This document shows, in pieces, positions 4,079 to 13,574 of a DNA stretch of 35,022 nt. Made by a program: the position numbers and the translations under genes. Every line of letters begins with the position of its first letter. Positions within the stretch are counted from its first letter, which is position 1. The notes below the pieces were generated by a model, which was not told the DNA's origin, did no database searches, and saw only the letters and a list, made by a program, of their open reading frames with translations. Source of the stretch: Actinomycetota bacterium (GTDB lineage: Bacteria; Actinomycetota; Acidimicrobiia; Acidimicrobiales; CADCTF01); assembly GCA_019348255.1 (NCBI GenBank), contig JAHWJU010000014.1, positions 1 through 35,022 on the forward strand, given 5' to 3'.

Positions 4079-4741
4079 GTGAACAGCGGCCCGACTACAG
4101 CAACGACCCTTCGCATCGCGATCGACGAGGCGAAGAGGACTGGCTGGGCCCGGTACGAAGGCGAATTTGCGGACGTGAGCTCGTCGGCGCTCGAGCTTGG
4201 CTACGTACCTGTCCCGACGAGGAAGCATGACCCAGAGGTCGCGCTGATTCAGCCCCGCGATCCATCCTCTGCCCGGCGCATGTCCATGAGCGCAAGGTAT
4301 GGGCTCGGCTCGCTACCGCTCCACACCGACGGCGCACACATGGCAATGCCGCCAGAGCTGACGATCCTTACGTCGGATCGCGAGAGCGGTGTCGGCACGT
4401 ACCTGCTGTATGTGGGCACCGGTGCGATGCCGCCCGATGTGGAGGAGGCTGCTCGCCACGGGGTCTTCGCCGTTCGTGACGGAGCGGCCGTGCGAAGTGT
4501 CACCGCTCGTCAGCGAGACGGAGCCCTGCGATTCGACCCGGTAGCTATGGCACCACGTGACGATCTCGCCCGGGCCGTCGTCCGCTACTTCGAGCAGGCT
4601 ACGTACGCTGCAGAAGTCCACCGTTGGCAGGCGCGTGAGGTTCTAGTGATCGACAACACATCGGTGGTTCATGGCCGCGAGAAGGCGGAGAACTCTCCCG
4701 ACCGTGAGTTGCGACGCTTGATGCTCCGGAGGGCGCCGTGA
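4079..4741 (+). CDS. TauD/TfdA-like Fe(II)/2-oxoglutarate dioxygenase
   Basis: GTG 4079 gives 220 aa. It has the Fe(II)/2-oxoglutarate dioxygenase signature. H82-x-D84 lies in PLHTDGAHMAMPPELTIL. The distal His198 and Arg200 are in VLVIDNTSVVHGR, and basic residues in ELRRLMLRR can bind 2-oxoglutarate. The VIDNTSVVHGR block strongly resembles the C-terminal part of the clavaminate-synthase/TauD fold. These enzymes hydroxylate small molecules, amino-acid side chains or nucleic-acid substrates. At 220 aa it is shorter than typical TauD (about 280), so some lid elements are missing. Its stop overlaps the next gene's start by 4 nt (GTGA), so it is probably translationally coupled to the HEPN gene. 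The substrate is unknown. Confidence 0.8.
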   Translation: MNSGPTTATTLRIAIDEAKRTGWARYEGEFADVSSSALELGYVPVPTRKHDPEVALIQPRDPSSARRMSMSARYGLGSLPLHTDGAHMAMPPELTILTSDRESGVGTYLLYVGTGAMPPDVEEAARHGVFAVRDGAAVRSVTARQRDGALRFDPVAMAPRDDLARAVVRYFEQATYAAEVHRWQAREVLVIDNTSVVHGREKAENSPDRELRRLMLRRAP

Positions 4742-5640
4742 CCGCGAAACCGTTCGACCATGAATCCCTTTGGCTCAAGGCCAAGTCATTCATCAATCGA
4801 TCATTCGCCGCGGCCGACACCGGTGACTTCGACGAGGCCGCGTTGTGGGCATCATGCGCACTCGAGCTTCTTGGAAAGGCTGCGCTGAGCAAGGTCAGTC
4901 CTTTGCTCGTCGCGGACCCAAGCGACGACGGCAAGAGTTTGTTGATCGCCGCTGGACTCTCGTCAGACTTCGCCGGATTCAAATCGATCCAGGCCAAGGC
5001 GGTGTTCAGCCGATGCGCGCGAGCGTTCCCGCCGTTCAGCGAATTGAGAGCGAACCAGATCGCGGTCAACCGCAACGAGGAGCTGCATTCCGGTGGCCTG
5101 CCTTTCGCTGCGGTCCACCAGGACGTGTGGTGGCAGACGTTCTGGGCTCTGGCGACCGTGTTGGCGCAGGCACGGGACCGCACACTCGATGAGCTTGTCC
5201 CCGCGAACCGAGTCAAGACGGTTGAAGAGCACCTGGCACGCAATGCGGAGAACATCAAGCTGCGGGTCGAGTCGCTTATCCAGCGAGCGACCCAGCGGCT
5301 TCAGCTCCTCGATGCCGCAGTTCTGACTGCGCAAGTTCACGCCGAGCTGTCAGCTCGAGCCGCCGCAATCTCGCTCGAACACCTCGCGTCACACCGATGC
5401 CCGGCCTGCGGCGGAATCGGGTTCCTGCACGGCGACTACGTCGGGGAGAGCGACGTGCAGTACGACTACGAGGACGCGACAGCTACGGAGACACTCACCG
5501 TCTTGGTCGAGAGCTTCTCGTGCGAGAACTGCGGCCTCGTTCTGCCCGAGCAGGAGTTCATCGCCGTTGCCGAGCTACCGGACACCTTCATCGTCGAGCG
5601 TGAGTACGAACCGGAATACGACGACTACGGCAACGAATGA
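4738..5640 (+). CDS. HEPN-domain protein with C-terminal zinc ribbon
   Basis: GTG 4738 overlaps the dioxygenase stop; 300 aa. The N-terminal helices (FDEAALWASCALELLGKAAL, about residues 31-50) resemble the first HEPN helix pair. R112-N113-x3-H117 (RNEELH) fits the HEPN RNase motif R-(N/D/H)-x3-H, whose Arg and His are catalytic in many HEPN toxins and defence nucleases. Residues 150-215 are helical. C221PAC224 and C262ENC265 form a probable zinc ribbon, and the C-terminus is acidic (EREYEPEYDDYGNE). HEPN proteins commonly cleave RNA in toxin-antitoxin and anti-phage systems. Coupling to a dioxygenase is unusual. Activity is inferred from the motif; the partner relationship is inferred from operon structure. 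Confidence 0.75.
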   Translation: MTAKPFDHESLWLKAKSFINRSFAAADTGDFDEAALWASCALELLGKAALSKVSPLLVADPSDDGKSLLIAAGLSSDFAGFKSIQAKAVFSRCARAFPPFSELRANQIAVNRNEELHSGGLPFAAVHQDVWWQTFWALATVLAQARDRTLDELVPANRVKTVEEHLARNAENIKLRVESLIQRATQRLQLLDAAVLTAQVHAELSARAAAISLEHLASHRCPACGGIGFLHGDYVGESDVQYDYEDATATETLTVLVESFSCENCGLVLPEQEFIAVAELPDTFIVEREYEPEYDDYGNE

Positions 5641-5662
5641 TCGCCGTGTGACTCGCGTTGCG

Positions 5663-6241
5663 CTATGCCGTGTCGCCATCCTTGACCGCACGAAGGCGGC
5701 GCGGGTCAGCGGGCAGCGACTCCCACACCTCCTCGTCCACGAGCCGTGGGAGCTCCTTGGGCGCCAGGTGTTCCTCGAAGATCGCGAAGGTCTCACCGAG
5801 GCGGGTGGCCGCCGGCGCCAGGATGCCGTGGAGCCCAAGCTGATGAGCCGCGCGCGCGACCTGCCAGCACGGTTCGTACTCGCCGACGGGCGAGCGGAGG
5901 TCCGCCTCCGACAATCCGACGGACGCAGCTGCCGCCGGGTCCCGGAGGTCGAGCACATCAGACACGCCGACCTCGACGAGGAGCAGCCGACGGGGCTGCA
6001 CCATGTCGCCTGTCATGCCGTCGAACGGATCGACAAGGTGCCGGTAGGCCTCCACGACGACTGACGCTCGTGGCCGCCCGAGATACAAGACCGAGAACGC
6101 GCCGGGCGGCCCCCAGCGGCCGCCCGCGCTGCTCCCGGTAAGCCCTCGCCAGTCGCGGCTGGCATGGCGCTCGAAGGTGCCCTCGACCTGCGTGCGCGGC
6201 GCCCGGCCAACAGCGACGATGAGTTCCCGGCGGCTGACCAC
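5663..6241 (-). CDS. RES-domain toxin (NAD+-targeting family)
   Basis: GTG 6241 directly follows the antitoxin stop (TAGGTG); 192 aa. RES-family features are GTFERHAS (conserved Arg), GGRW, SVLYLGRPRASVVVEAYRHL (conserved Glu) and, near the end, HGILAPAATRLGETFAIFEE. RES toxins degrade or phosphorolyse NAD+. The family is named for conserved Arg, Glu and Ser. The position normally read as PS-A in this last block is PAA here, so the expected Ser appears to be Ala. The toxin may be inactive, or another residue may substitute. It forms a bicistronic module with the gene at 6242-6595, in the antitoxin-first order typical of Xre-RES systems. Confidence 0.83.
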   Translation of the reverse strand: MVSRRELIVAVGRAPRTQVEGTFERHASRDWRGLTGSSAGGRWGPPGAFSVLYLGRPRASVVVEAYRHLVDPFDGMTGDMVQPRRLLLVEVGVSDVLDLRDPAAAASVGLSEADLRSPVGEYEPCWQVARAAHQLGLHGILAPAATRLGETFAIFEEHLAPKELPRLVDEEVWESLPADPRRLRAVKDGDTA

Positions 6242-6595
6242 CTACATCGCTCCCGCTCGCAGGCGCTCCACCGACTGGACCACCGGCTGGAAGTCGCCGG
6301 CGGCGAGGAGGTCGATGGGGCGGGCGCCCTCGAATTCTGGGTTCTTGGCGTGCATCCAGATCTCGACGCCCTCCGGGCGGTACACGGCGCCGAGCAGACG
6401 GACCACGTAGTGCGTGTCGACGAGCCGATCCCGAGTCTCGTCGCGTGGGCGCGAACTACCCGCAGCCCAGTGCTGCACTTGCCGTTCCTTGACTCCGGTC
6501 GCCCTGGCGATGTCGCAGTTGCTGAGGCCGGCCGCCCTGATCTCACGAACGATCTCTTGATAGGAGAACCCGGCCTGAGGGGTTGCTTGGGTCAA
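6242..6595 (-). CDS. Xre/MbcA/ParS-like antitoxin of the RES toxin
   Basis: This 117-aa protein starts at TTG 6595, preceded by a GGGGGTG ribosome-binding stretch. The N-terminal half is a helix-turn-helix (SNCDIARATGVKERQVQHWA, about residues 25-44). The C-terminal half (WMHAKNPEFEGARPIDLLAA, then VVQSVERL) matches the MbcA/ParS/Xre antitoxin toxin-binding domain. It neutralises the downstream RES toxin and probably represses its own promoter. The stop abuts the toxin start, ensuring coupled translation. The promoter region contains a 12-bp-period repeat (6634-6652) suited to autoregulation. Confidence 0.85.
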   Translation of the reverse strand: MTQATPQAGFSYQEIVREIRAAGLSNCDIARATGVKERQVQHWAAGSSRPRDETRDRLVDTHYVVRLLGAVYRPEGVEIWMHAKNPEFEGARPIDLLAAGDFQPVVQSVERLRAGAM

Positions 6596-9481: not shown

Positions 9482-9946
9482 TCACCCGCTCTCGTCGAGC
9501 GACGTCGTGATCTCGATCGCTGCCTCGAGGCTGCGGGCGACGGGGCAACCGTCGGCGTGGGCTTCGAGAGCGCGCTCAGCCGCCTCCCACCGATCCTCGG
9601 GGATGGTGACGCCCCGGTAGGTGACGTGGATGCGCTTGATGACGAGGACCTTTCCCTCGAGCTCGATCTCACCCCGTGCGTGCCCCACCAGACCGGTGGG
9701 GTCGATCCGCCGGGCCCTGAGAGCACCGGCGAACGTGCCCGTCAGTCAGCCGCCGGCGGCGGCGACGACGTGGTCCAAAGTCGTCGCGTGGACCTCGAAG
9801 GCACCCTCGGGGACGCCGTAGTGCTCGGCGACGGCACCGTGGACGCCGTAAAAGGTCGGCTGCTCCTCGCCCGGCAGGAACGCCGCCCGGTTCGGGCCGT
9901 CACGACGCTCGATCCTCGACTCTGATACGTACACGACTTCGCCCAT
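9482..9946 (-). CDS. OsmC-family redox protein with in-frame TGA (probable selenoprotein)
   Basis: From ATG 9946 the frame encodes 66 residues ending DHVVAAAGG, then TGA (9748-9746). It continues in the same frame with LTGTFAGALRARRIDPTG, through GKVLVIKRIHVTYRG, to CPVARSLEAAIEITTSL and a TGA at 9482. OsmC proteins are thiol peroxidases. Their two conserved cysteines lie in GGC and in CPV; here the first is TGA and the second is kept (DGCPV). This is the pattern of selenocysteine replacing the peroxidatic Cys (residue 67 of 154). A hairpin at 9708-9731 fits a bacterial SECIS. OsmC-like selenoproteins are known. The gene diverges from the TGA-containing rhodanese gene across 162 bp. The alternative is a nonsense mutation. 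Confidence 0.8.
9708..9731 (-). promoter_or_regulatory. Candidate bacterial SECIS of the OsmC-like gene
   Basis: Read on the minus strand, CGCCGG pairs perfectly with CCGGCG around a 12-nt loop whose second base is G. The loop begins 21 nt after the TGA. Bacterial SECIS models require a hairpin with a G among the first two loop bases about 16-37 nt after UGA. High-GC sequence forms hairpins easily, so this is supportive and not proof. An alternative longer fold pairs part of the loop. Confidence 0.5.
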
Positions 9947-11598: not shown

Positions 11599-12282
11599 GT
11601 GGTGGCGTCGGTCTCGCTGATCGAGGACGATCCGCGGATCCGATCGGCGTTGGTACGGGTTCTCGCCGCCCGGGGCCACGCGGTGCGCGCCGCGTCCACG
11701 GCCATGGACGGCCTCCGCCAGGTGGTGGAGTTCCCTCCGGACGTGGTGGTGCTCGACCTAGGGCTTCCGGACATGGATGGCTCCGAGTTGCTCAAGATGA
11801 TGAGGGCCGTCACCGCTGTGCCTGTCATCGTGGCCACGGCGCGCGACGACGAGACGGAGATCGTTCGCCTTCTCAACCTGGGTGCGGACGACTACGTCGT
11901 CAAGCCGTTCTCCGGCGAGCAGCTCGACGCTCGCATCGGCGCCGTCCTTCGCCGCGCCGGCGCCTCCCGGGACGCCGCGAATGTGGTCGTGGGGGAGCTG
12001 CGCATAAACCTGAAGAGCCGGGAAGCGACCCTCGGCGGGCGTCCCTTGGACCTCGCCCGCAAGGAGTTCGACCTCCTGTCGTTCCTCGCGCTCAATGCCG
12101 GCACGGTTGTCACCAAGCCAGAGTTGCTGGCGGAGGTGTGGCGTCAACCGCTCGGCGGGGGTGACAAGACCGTCGACGTGCATCTCTCGTGGCTGCGGCG
12201 CAAGCTCGGCGAGACCGCAGCCGAGCCGCGCTACCTGCAAACAGTGCGGGGCGTGGGGGTCAAGCTGGTGGCACCCGAGTGA
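11599..12282 (+). CDS. OmpR/PhoB-family response regulator
   Basis: GTG 11599 (or GTG 11602) gives 227 aa. The receiver domain (about 1-115) has the acidic pair in LIEDDPR, the phospho-acceptor Asp53 in VVLDLGLPDMDG and Lys in YVVKPF. The winged-helix effector domain (about 130-225) includes LDLARKEFDLLSFLALNAG and the recognition helix KTVDVHLSWLRRKLGE, ending YLQTVRGVGVKL. It activates or represses genes when phosphorylated by the kinase encoded next. The stop overlaps the kinase start by 4 nt. Repeats in its own promoter and upstream of the 13723 operon suggest both as targets. Confidence 0.93.
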   Translation: MVASVSLIEDDPRIRSALVRVLAARGHAVRAASTAMDGLRQVVEFPPDVVVLDLGLPDMDGSELLKMMRAVTAVPVIVATARDDETEIVRLLNLGADDYVVKPFSGEQLDARIGAVLRRAGASRDAANVVVGELRINLKSREATLGGRPLDLARKEFDLLSFLALNAGTVVTKPELLAEVWRQPLGGGDKTVDVHLSWLRRKLGETAAEPRYLQTVRGVGVKLVAPE

Positions 12283-13574
12283 GGCCGCGTCTCATTCTGC
12301 TGACCGCAGCCACGACTTGGCTGGTGGCCTTGGCCTTCCTCGTGCCACTGGCTCTGCTCGTGCGGACCCTCGCCAGCGACCGCGCCATGGGCGCGGCCGA
12401 GCTCGAGGCCCAGTCGCTGGCGCCGGTTCTGGCGTTGACCGACGACCCCCACGTCATCCAACCCGCCATCGAGGCCACCACCTCCGGGGCGCAAGGACGA
12501 CTCACCATCTTCCTCGACGACGGCCGGAGCTTTGGTGCCCCCGCCGACCGCAGGCACAGCCTTGCTCTCGCCCGGCAGGGGCGCACATTCTCGACGCCTG
12601 CTCCGGGCGGGACCGAGGTGCTCGTGCCCGTTGTGGTGGGGGACGGTTCTACCGCCGTCGTTCGGGTGCTCGTGCCCTCCGAGGCGCTGCACCGCGGAGT
12701 GGGTCAGGCGTGGCTCGTCCTGGTGGCCCTCGGAGTTGCTCTGGTACTCCTGGCCCTGGTCTTCGCCGATCGGATGGCCCGCTCGATCGTGGGTCCTGTC
12801 GAACGCCTTGCGGAGGCGGCTCACCGGCTGGGCGAAGGTGACCTCGAGGTGCGAGTCACACCGGAGGGACCACCCGAGATAGCCGAGGTGGGACGGGCCT
12901 TCAACCGGGTCGCGGGGCGGGTGAAAGAGCTGCTCGCCGCCGAGCGGGAGGCAGTGGCCGACCTCTCCCACCGGCTCCGCACCCCGCTCACCGCGCTGCG
13001 CCTCGACACCGAGATCCTCACCGACCCCGAGGAGCGCCGGCGCATCGCGCAGGACGCAGAGGAGCTCGAGCGGGTCGTGGACAGAATCATCATCGACGCC
13101 CGCCGTCCCATACGTGGGGGGATGGCATCGAGCACCGACCTCAACCATCTCGCCCGCCAGCGGGTCGAGTTCTGGGCCGCTCTGGCCGAGGAGCAGGGCC
13201 GGCGCTGGTCGATCGAGACCCCGGACGCGGCCCTGCCGGTACCCGTCGACAGCGACGACTTGGAGGCCGCGCTGGACGCCCTCCTCGGCAACGTCTTCGC
13301 CCACACGCCCGACGGCAGCGGCTTTCGGGTGCTGGTCGAGGCAGGCCAGGAGGGCGAAGCCAGGATCATCGTCGAGGACGAGGGCCCGGGCTTCCAGAGC
13401 GAAGCCGTGGTGGCCAGAGGGGCGAGCGGCGCCGGCTCCACCGGCCTCGGCCTGGACATCGCCCGCCGCACGGCCGAGGCGGCGGGAGGATCACTTCGCG
13501 TCGTCGGCACAGGCAATGGTGGCGGACGGGTTGAGATGGAGTTCCCCCCGCACAACGGTGAACTCCCGCGGTGA
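12279..13574 (+). CDS. Sensor histidine kinase partner of the OmpR regulator
   Basis: GTG 12279 overlaps the regulator stop (GTGA); 431 aa. It has an N-terminal membrane helix (about 3-28), an extracytoplasmic sensor of about 110 residues, and a second helix (WLVLVALGVALVLLALVFAD, about 147-166). HAMP follows (RSIVGPVERLAEAAHRLGEG), then HisKA with the phospho-His in ADLSHRLRTPLTALRLD (about 230). HATPase motifs are present (ALDALLGNVFAHTPDG, EDEGPGF, GAGSTGLGLDIARRTAEAAG). It autophosphorylates in response to an envelope signal and passes phosphate to the preceding regulator. The ligand is unknown. Confidence 0.93.
   Translation: MRPRLILLTAATTWLVALAFLVPLALLVRTLASDRAMGAAELEAQSLAPVLALTDDPHVIQPAIEATTSGAQGRLTIFLDDGRSFGAPADRRHSLALARQGRTFSTPAPGGTEVLVPVVVGDGSTAVVRVLVPSEALHRGVGQAWLVLVALGVALVLLALVFADRMARSIVGPVERLAEAAHRLGEGDLEVRVTPEGPPEIAEVGRAFNRVAGRVKELLAAEREAVADLSHRLRTPLTALRLDTEILTDPEERRRIAQDAEELERVVDRIIIDARRPIRGGMASSTDLNHLARQRVEFWAALAEEQGRRWSIETPDAALPVPVDSDDLEAALDALLGNVFAHTPDGSGFRVLVEAGQEGEARIIVEDEGPGFQSEAVVARGASGAGSTGLGLDIARRTAEAAGGSLRVVGTGNGGGRVEMEFPPHNGELPR

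Follow-up and report, generated by a model that had tools for sequence, protein, structure and literature searches.

A probable selenocysteine-containing protein of the OsmC family encoded in a draft genome of Actinomycetota

The stretch of DNA considered here (the window) comprises positions 1 to 35,022 of contig JAHWJU010000014.1, which belongs to the draft genome of an Actinomycetota bacterium of the order Acidimicrobiales (assembly GCA_019348255.1). It carries, on the minus strand, a gene of the OsmC family whose reading frame contains a TGA codon where the peroxidatic cysteine would be encoded, and in this work we ask whether this codon encodes selenocysteine (Sec).

The gene and its reading frame

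The gene and its two catalytic positions are located as follows:
9946-9482, minus strand: OsmC-family gene, with ATG at 9946-9944, 154 residues if codon 67 is counted as Sec, and the stop codon TGA at 9484-9482
9748-9746, minus strand: in-frame TGA, codon 67, the putative Sec codon at the peroxidatic cysteine position
9547-9545, minus strand: TGC, Cys134, the second (resolving) cysteine of the family, in an invariant alignment column

Codon 67 is flanked by ...VVAAAGG and LTGTF... and is the sole interruption of the frame, while Cys134 lies in the context DGCPV. An earlier note on this DNA had read the frame through the TGA between AAAGG and LTGTF, with the cysteine of DGCPV intact, and this reading holds for the whole of 9946-9482. 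A standard gene caller would split the gene at codon 67, and the annotated product would lack its C-terminal half together with the active-site residue.

The catalytic codon in homologues

A sample of 396 genomes of the phylum was searched at the protein level, and matches were found in 46 of them; the homologue has an in-frame TGA in 41 genomes and no stop in the remaining 5. Codons were extracted for 34 loci. Besides that of the window, these comprise 29 others from the phylum sample and four named records from elsewhere, titled Deltaproteobacteria, Anaerolineales, Bacillota, and Acidobacteria. TGA occupies exactly the equivalent of codon 67 in all 34, and it is also present in the nearest relative, a 77% identical homologue in a genome of the same family as that of the window (G001). 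In the Cys-type homologues (L090-L096) the same codon is TGC or TGT, and thus these sequences and the TGA-containing relatives form a classical Sec/Cys pair. The proposal of the earlier note that the TGA replaces the peroxidatic cysteine is borne out by this alignment, since the Cys homologues carry their cysteine at exactly codon 67. The only fetched TGA-less homologue that departs from TGC or TGT is L097, a degenerate copy with GAC.

In an alignment of 20 members, which are 50-78% identical, the frame 3' of the TGA is conserved and columns 67 and 134 are invariant. The motif at the Sec site is ULTGT in the window and UL[TLVA]GT or UM[VM]GT among its relatives. Within the order of the window organism, the gene was found in only 2 of 397 sampled genomes, compared with matches in 46 of 396 genomes of the phylum sample, and this patchy distribution suggests loss or horizontal transfer.

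Several further family members were noted in the course of this comparison. In the degenerate copy L097 (G379:C43), GVD stands in place of GC at the catalytic site and SP in place of CP at the second, so that both catalytic cysteines are gone. The more distant TGA-containing OsmC proteins L098 and L099 have the motif U-M-M-G-T and may represent a further Sec clade. The genome of the window also encodes a stop-free protein of the OsmC family (G000:C244, L001; 64.5 bits).

Family assignment and predicted fold

The read-through protein matches the Pfam family OsmC (PF02566) with an E-value of 3e-12 and 47.2 bits, above the curated cut-off of 27.5. Aligned with the Thermus OsmC structure 1ukk, it has codon 67 opposite the catalytic cysteine and Cys134 opposite the other cysteine of the family. 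When the alignment was run as a profile against the PDB, no match was returned, whereas the single-sequence search found 1ukk. AlphaFold2, run on the 20-member alignment, gave a model with a predicted local distance difference test score (pLDDT) of 95.5, and the top Foldseek matches of this model were crystal structures of Ohr and OsmC proteins (E-values down to 7e-9, template modelling scores of 0.6-0.8). On the basis of this model, we are confident in predicting an OsmC/Ohr fold for the window protein.

Selenocysteine machinery

The genome of the window (2.99 Mb, 93% complete) was searched for Sec machinery, a check that the earlier note had proposed, and this search found selA, selB, selD, and a fragment of a tRNA-Sec gene. 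The note had named two outcomes that would refute its proposal, missing Sec machinery and a cysteine located elsewhere in homologues, and neither was observed. The selA gene (410.7 bits) is directly followed by selB (268.6 bits; open reading frame 4595-6331 of its contig), whose product includes the C-terminal winged-helix SelB domain, and selD scores 333 bits. BLAST with the tRNA-Sec of a relative identified the 5' 52 nt of the tRNA gene, with a UCA anticodon, at C191:1-52 (98% identity), where it is cut by the contig end. Rfam aligns this piece with positions 1-52 of tRNA-Sec, at a score under the gathering cut-off because the gene is truncated. The Rfam tRNA-Sec search of the genome had a tRNA-Ser as its best match, and the pattern TTCAAA...GGTTCGANTCC had none.

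A full tRNA-Sec gene is present in 16 of 17 other genomes searched, the exception being G001. Among the 41 genomes with a TGA-containing OsmC gene, selA was found in 37, and the four in which it was not found are drafts that are 75-93% complete; of the five genomes whose OsmC homologue has no TGA, it was found in only one. Formate dehydrogenase was considered as a second selenoprotein and rejected, as its matches in the window's genome have no in-frame stop.

The RNA region 3' of the UGA

Two hairpins can be formed by the transcript just downstream of codon 67:
9735-9703, minus strand: candidate selenocysteine insertion sequence (SECIS) hairpin, with the apical loop UCA at 9720-9718, 25 nt past the UGA; the same fold is predicted for the G001 homologue
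9701-9683, minus strand: second possible hairpin, CCCCACC-GGUCU-GGUGGGG, with its loop 51 nt past the UGA and thus outside the usual 16-37 nt; the sequence is identical in G001

In the model of the bacterial SECIS (bSECIS), the upper stem has 4-16 bp, and the apical loop, of 3-9 nt, lies 16-37 nt from the UGA and has a G within its first two positions (PMC13188914). The hairpin shared by the window and G001 has the loops UCA and UCG, respectively, at 25 nt, and therefore its size and distance fit the model, as does the stem, but the G rule is not strictly obeyed. The earlier note had described a 6-bp hairpin at 9708-9731 with G in the second loop position. Its stem, CGCCGG/CCGGCG, is indeed present at 9731-9708; however, the G would stand second only in a 12-nt loop kept open despite the further G-C pairs that it holds.

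In most relatives, an 8-bp stem is predicted to close a loop of the GGC type, which opens with GG 26 nt past the UGA. No two-sided changes occur in the 8-bp register, while in a 5-bp register two pairs show such changes, including C-G to U-A, which gives modest support by covariation. Across 32 homologues, the strongest synonymous constraint lies almost wholly at codons +1, +2, +3, +7, +8, +9, and +11 after the UGA; the mean excess is 0.33 over codons +1 to +12 and 0.05 elsewhere (permutation p < 5e-5). This is the pattern expected of a SECIS inside a coding region. Between the window and G001, codon identity over codons 68-82 does not exceed the gene average (p 0.52), and only codons 76-88 stand out (p 0.007), a stretch that was picked after the data had been seen. 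A scan of the region 3' of the UGA with Rfam found nothing credible.

Decoding of codon 67

Taken together, the conserved codon and the Sec machinery point to decoding of the codon 67 UGA as selenocysteine in the window organism, to which we assign a probability of about 0.93. Chance is excluded because both the TGA and the machinery are conserved, and the hairpin is not the reason for this judgement. The UGA would be translated by means of the genome's own SelA, SelB, SelD, and tRNA-Sec, with insertion presumably directed by an RNA element just 3' of the codon.

Four observations weigh against this interpretation. In its predicted fold, the window hairpin has no G at loop positions 1-2, and the advantage of its stem in stability over synonymous shuffles is mild (z -1.6 and 7% for 45 nt; 0.7% for the first 60 nt). 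A complete tRNA-Sec gene was not found in the window's assembly by Rfam, pattern, or BLAST searches. Finally, a SelB search of G001 found none, yet this genome carries the TGA gene; its assembly may be incomplete there, since a match at the level of EF-Tu is also missing.

Two other readings of the TGA were weighed. The draft state of the assembly, which is in 314 contigs, would be compatible with a premature stop caused by pseudogenization or a sequencing error, but we regard this as scarcely credible: more than 40 other genomes share the TGA at this codon and retain the frame beyond it, which already refutes a premature stop, and the differences from the 77% identical homologue fall mostly on the third codon position (22/24/59 at the first, second, and third positions). 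A reassigned code or plain read-through, with TGA as Trp, Gly, or another residue, would equally keep the frame open; it is nevertheless very improbable, because the gene itself terminates with TGA, the Cys-type homologues have neither Trp nor Gly but Cys at the site, and the genome encodes SelA, SelB, SelD, and a partial tRNA-Sec.

Possible function of the protein

By analogy with known members of the family, the window protein probably functions as a Sec-dependent peroxidase of the thiol type, and its substrate and reductant are likewise proposed by analogy. OsmC-fold proteins are varied in function, and for this reason a Sec protein with another redox role, such as a disulfide or selenenylsulfide reductase or a protein handling persulfides or electrophiles, was also considered. 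Such a role would agree with the score of the protein against the OsmC peroxiredoxin model (27.8 bits, cut-off 85.8) and with its neighbour genes, none of which is conserved among the compared loci and which thus give no functional hint. There is also a precedent, as one protein initially described as conferring hydroperoxide resistance turned out to have no thiol peroxidase activity (PMC4069020). Against these points, both catalytic-cysteine positions and the OsmC/Ohr fold are retained, and we consider a non-peroxidase role unlikely, if distinctly more plausible than either of the readings that dispense with Sec.

In Ohr/OsmC proteins, the peroxidatic cysteine, on the N-terminal side, attacks the peroxide, the resolving cysteine, on the C-terminal side, forms a disulfide with it, and Ohr is re-reduced by lipoylated proteins (PMC4069020). 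In a peroxidase of the proposed kind, a selenolate in place of the peroxidatic cysteine would reduce an organic or lipid hydroperoxide, the oxidised selenium (selenenic acid) would be resolved by Cys134 to a selenenylsulfide, and the latter would be opened by a cellular thiol or dithiol reductant. With the Sec form of this widespread OsmC subfamily in about 41 genomes and the non-Sec form in 5, annotation would seem to understate how common selenium-based defence against peroxides is in the phylum. The subfamily also offers a ready set of Sec/Cys pairs for testing the contribution of selenium to catalysis by OsmC proteins.

Relation to known OsmC-like selenoproteins

Sec-containing OsmC-like proteins, to which the earlier note had rightly referred, have been known since 2005, when one (COG1765) with the motif UxxT was reported from the Sargasso Sea (PMC1088965); it was later listed in reviews (PMC9312934, PMC13188914). 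That protein and the window's share the OsmC domain and Sec, putative in the window's case, at the catalytic cysteine position; a bSECIS is predicted downstream in the published gene, and the window has a candidate hairpin there. They differ in motif, compared by its published form only, as the window has U-L-T-G-T (UxxG, with T at +4). With the organic hydroperoxide reductases of the OsmC/Ohr type (1ukk, 1usp, E. coli OsmC), the window protein shares the fold and the two catalytic cysteine positions, but it has the putative Sec for the peroxidatic cysteine and is 10-22% identical in structural alignments.

The NCBIfam model NF041052 (OsmC_like_Se, OsmC-related (seleno)protein) describes proteins of the same superfamily, and its name covers Sec or Cys forms. 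It did not match the window protein at E <= 1e-3; its best E-value among the 20 members was 3e-8, and the two homologues listed with a score reached 28 and 21.4 bits (cut-off 95). Sec-OsmC proteins as a kind are thus already known, whereas the window's subfamily seems to be uncatalogued and without a model of its own, because its homologues with a listed score fall far under this cut-off and because of the motif ULTGT. A broader proposal is tentative, with the odds slightly against it: a separate uncatalogued Sec-OsmC subfamily (U-[LM]-x-G-T) may exist in several phyla with Sec as its usual form, and in the window's family an atypical SECIS would be read by SelB without the usual loop guanosine.

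Gene surroundings

Elsewhere in the window, an open reading frame at 1332-2450 on the minus strand resembles a tyrosine recombinase/integrase (XerA-type, 8.5e-13) and may mark a mobile element near the OsmC gene. At 11599-13574, on the plus strand, a response regulator is paired with a histidine kinase, and genes for glycosyltransferase and ABC transporter proteins come next. The closest homologue (G001:C117, L086) is located on a 3.4-kb contig, where it adjoins a DDE transposase-like gene.
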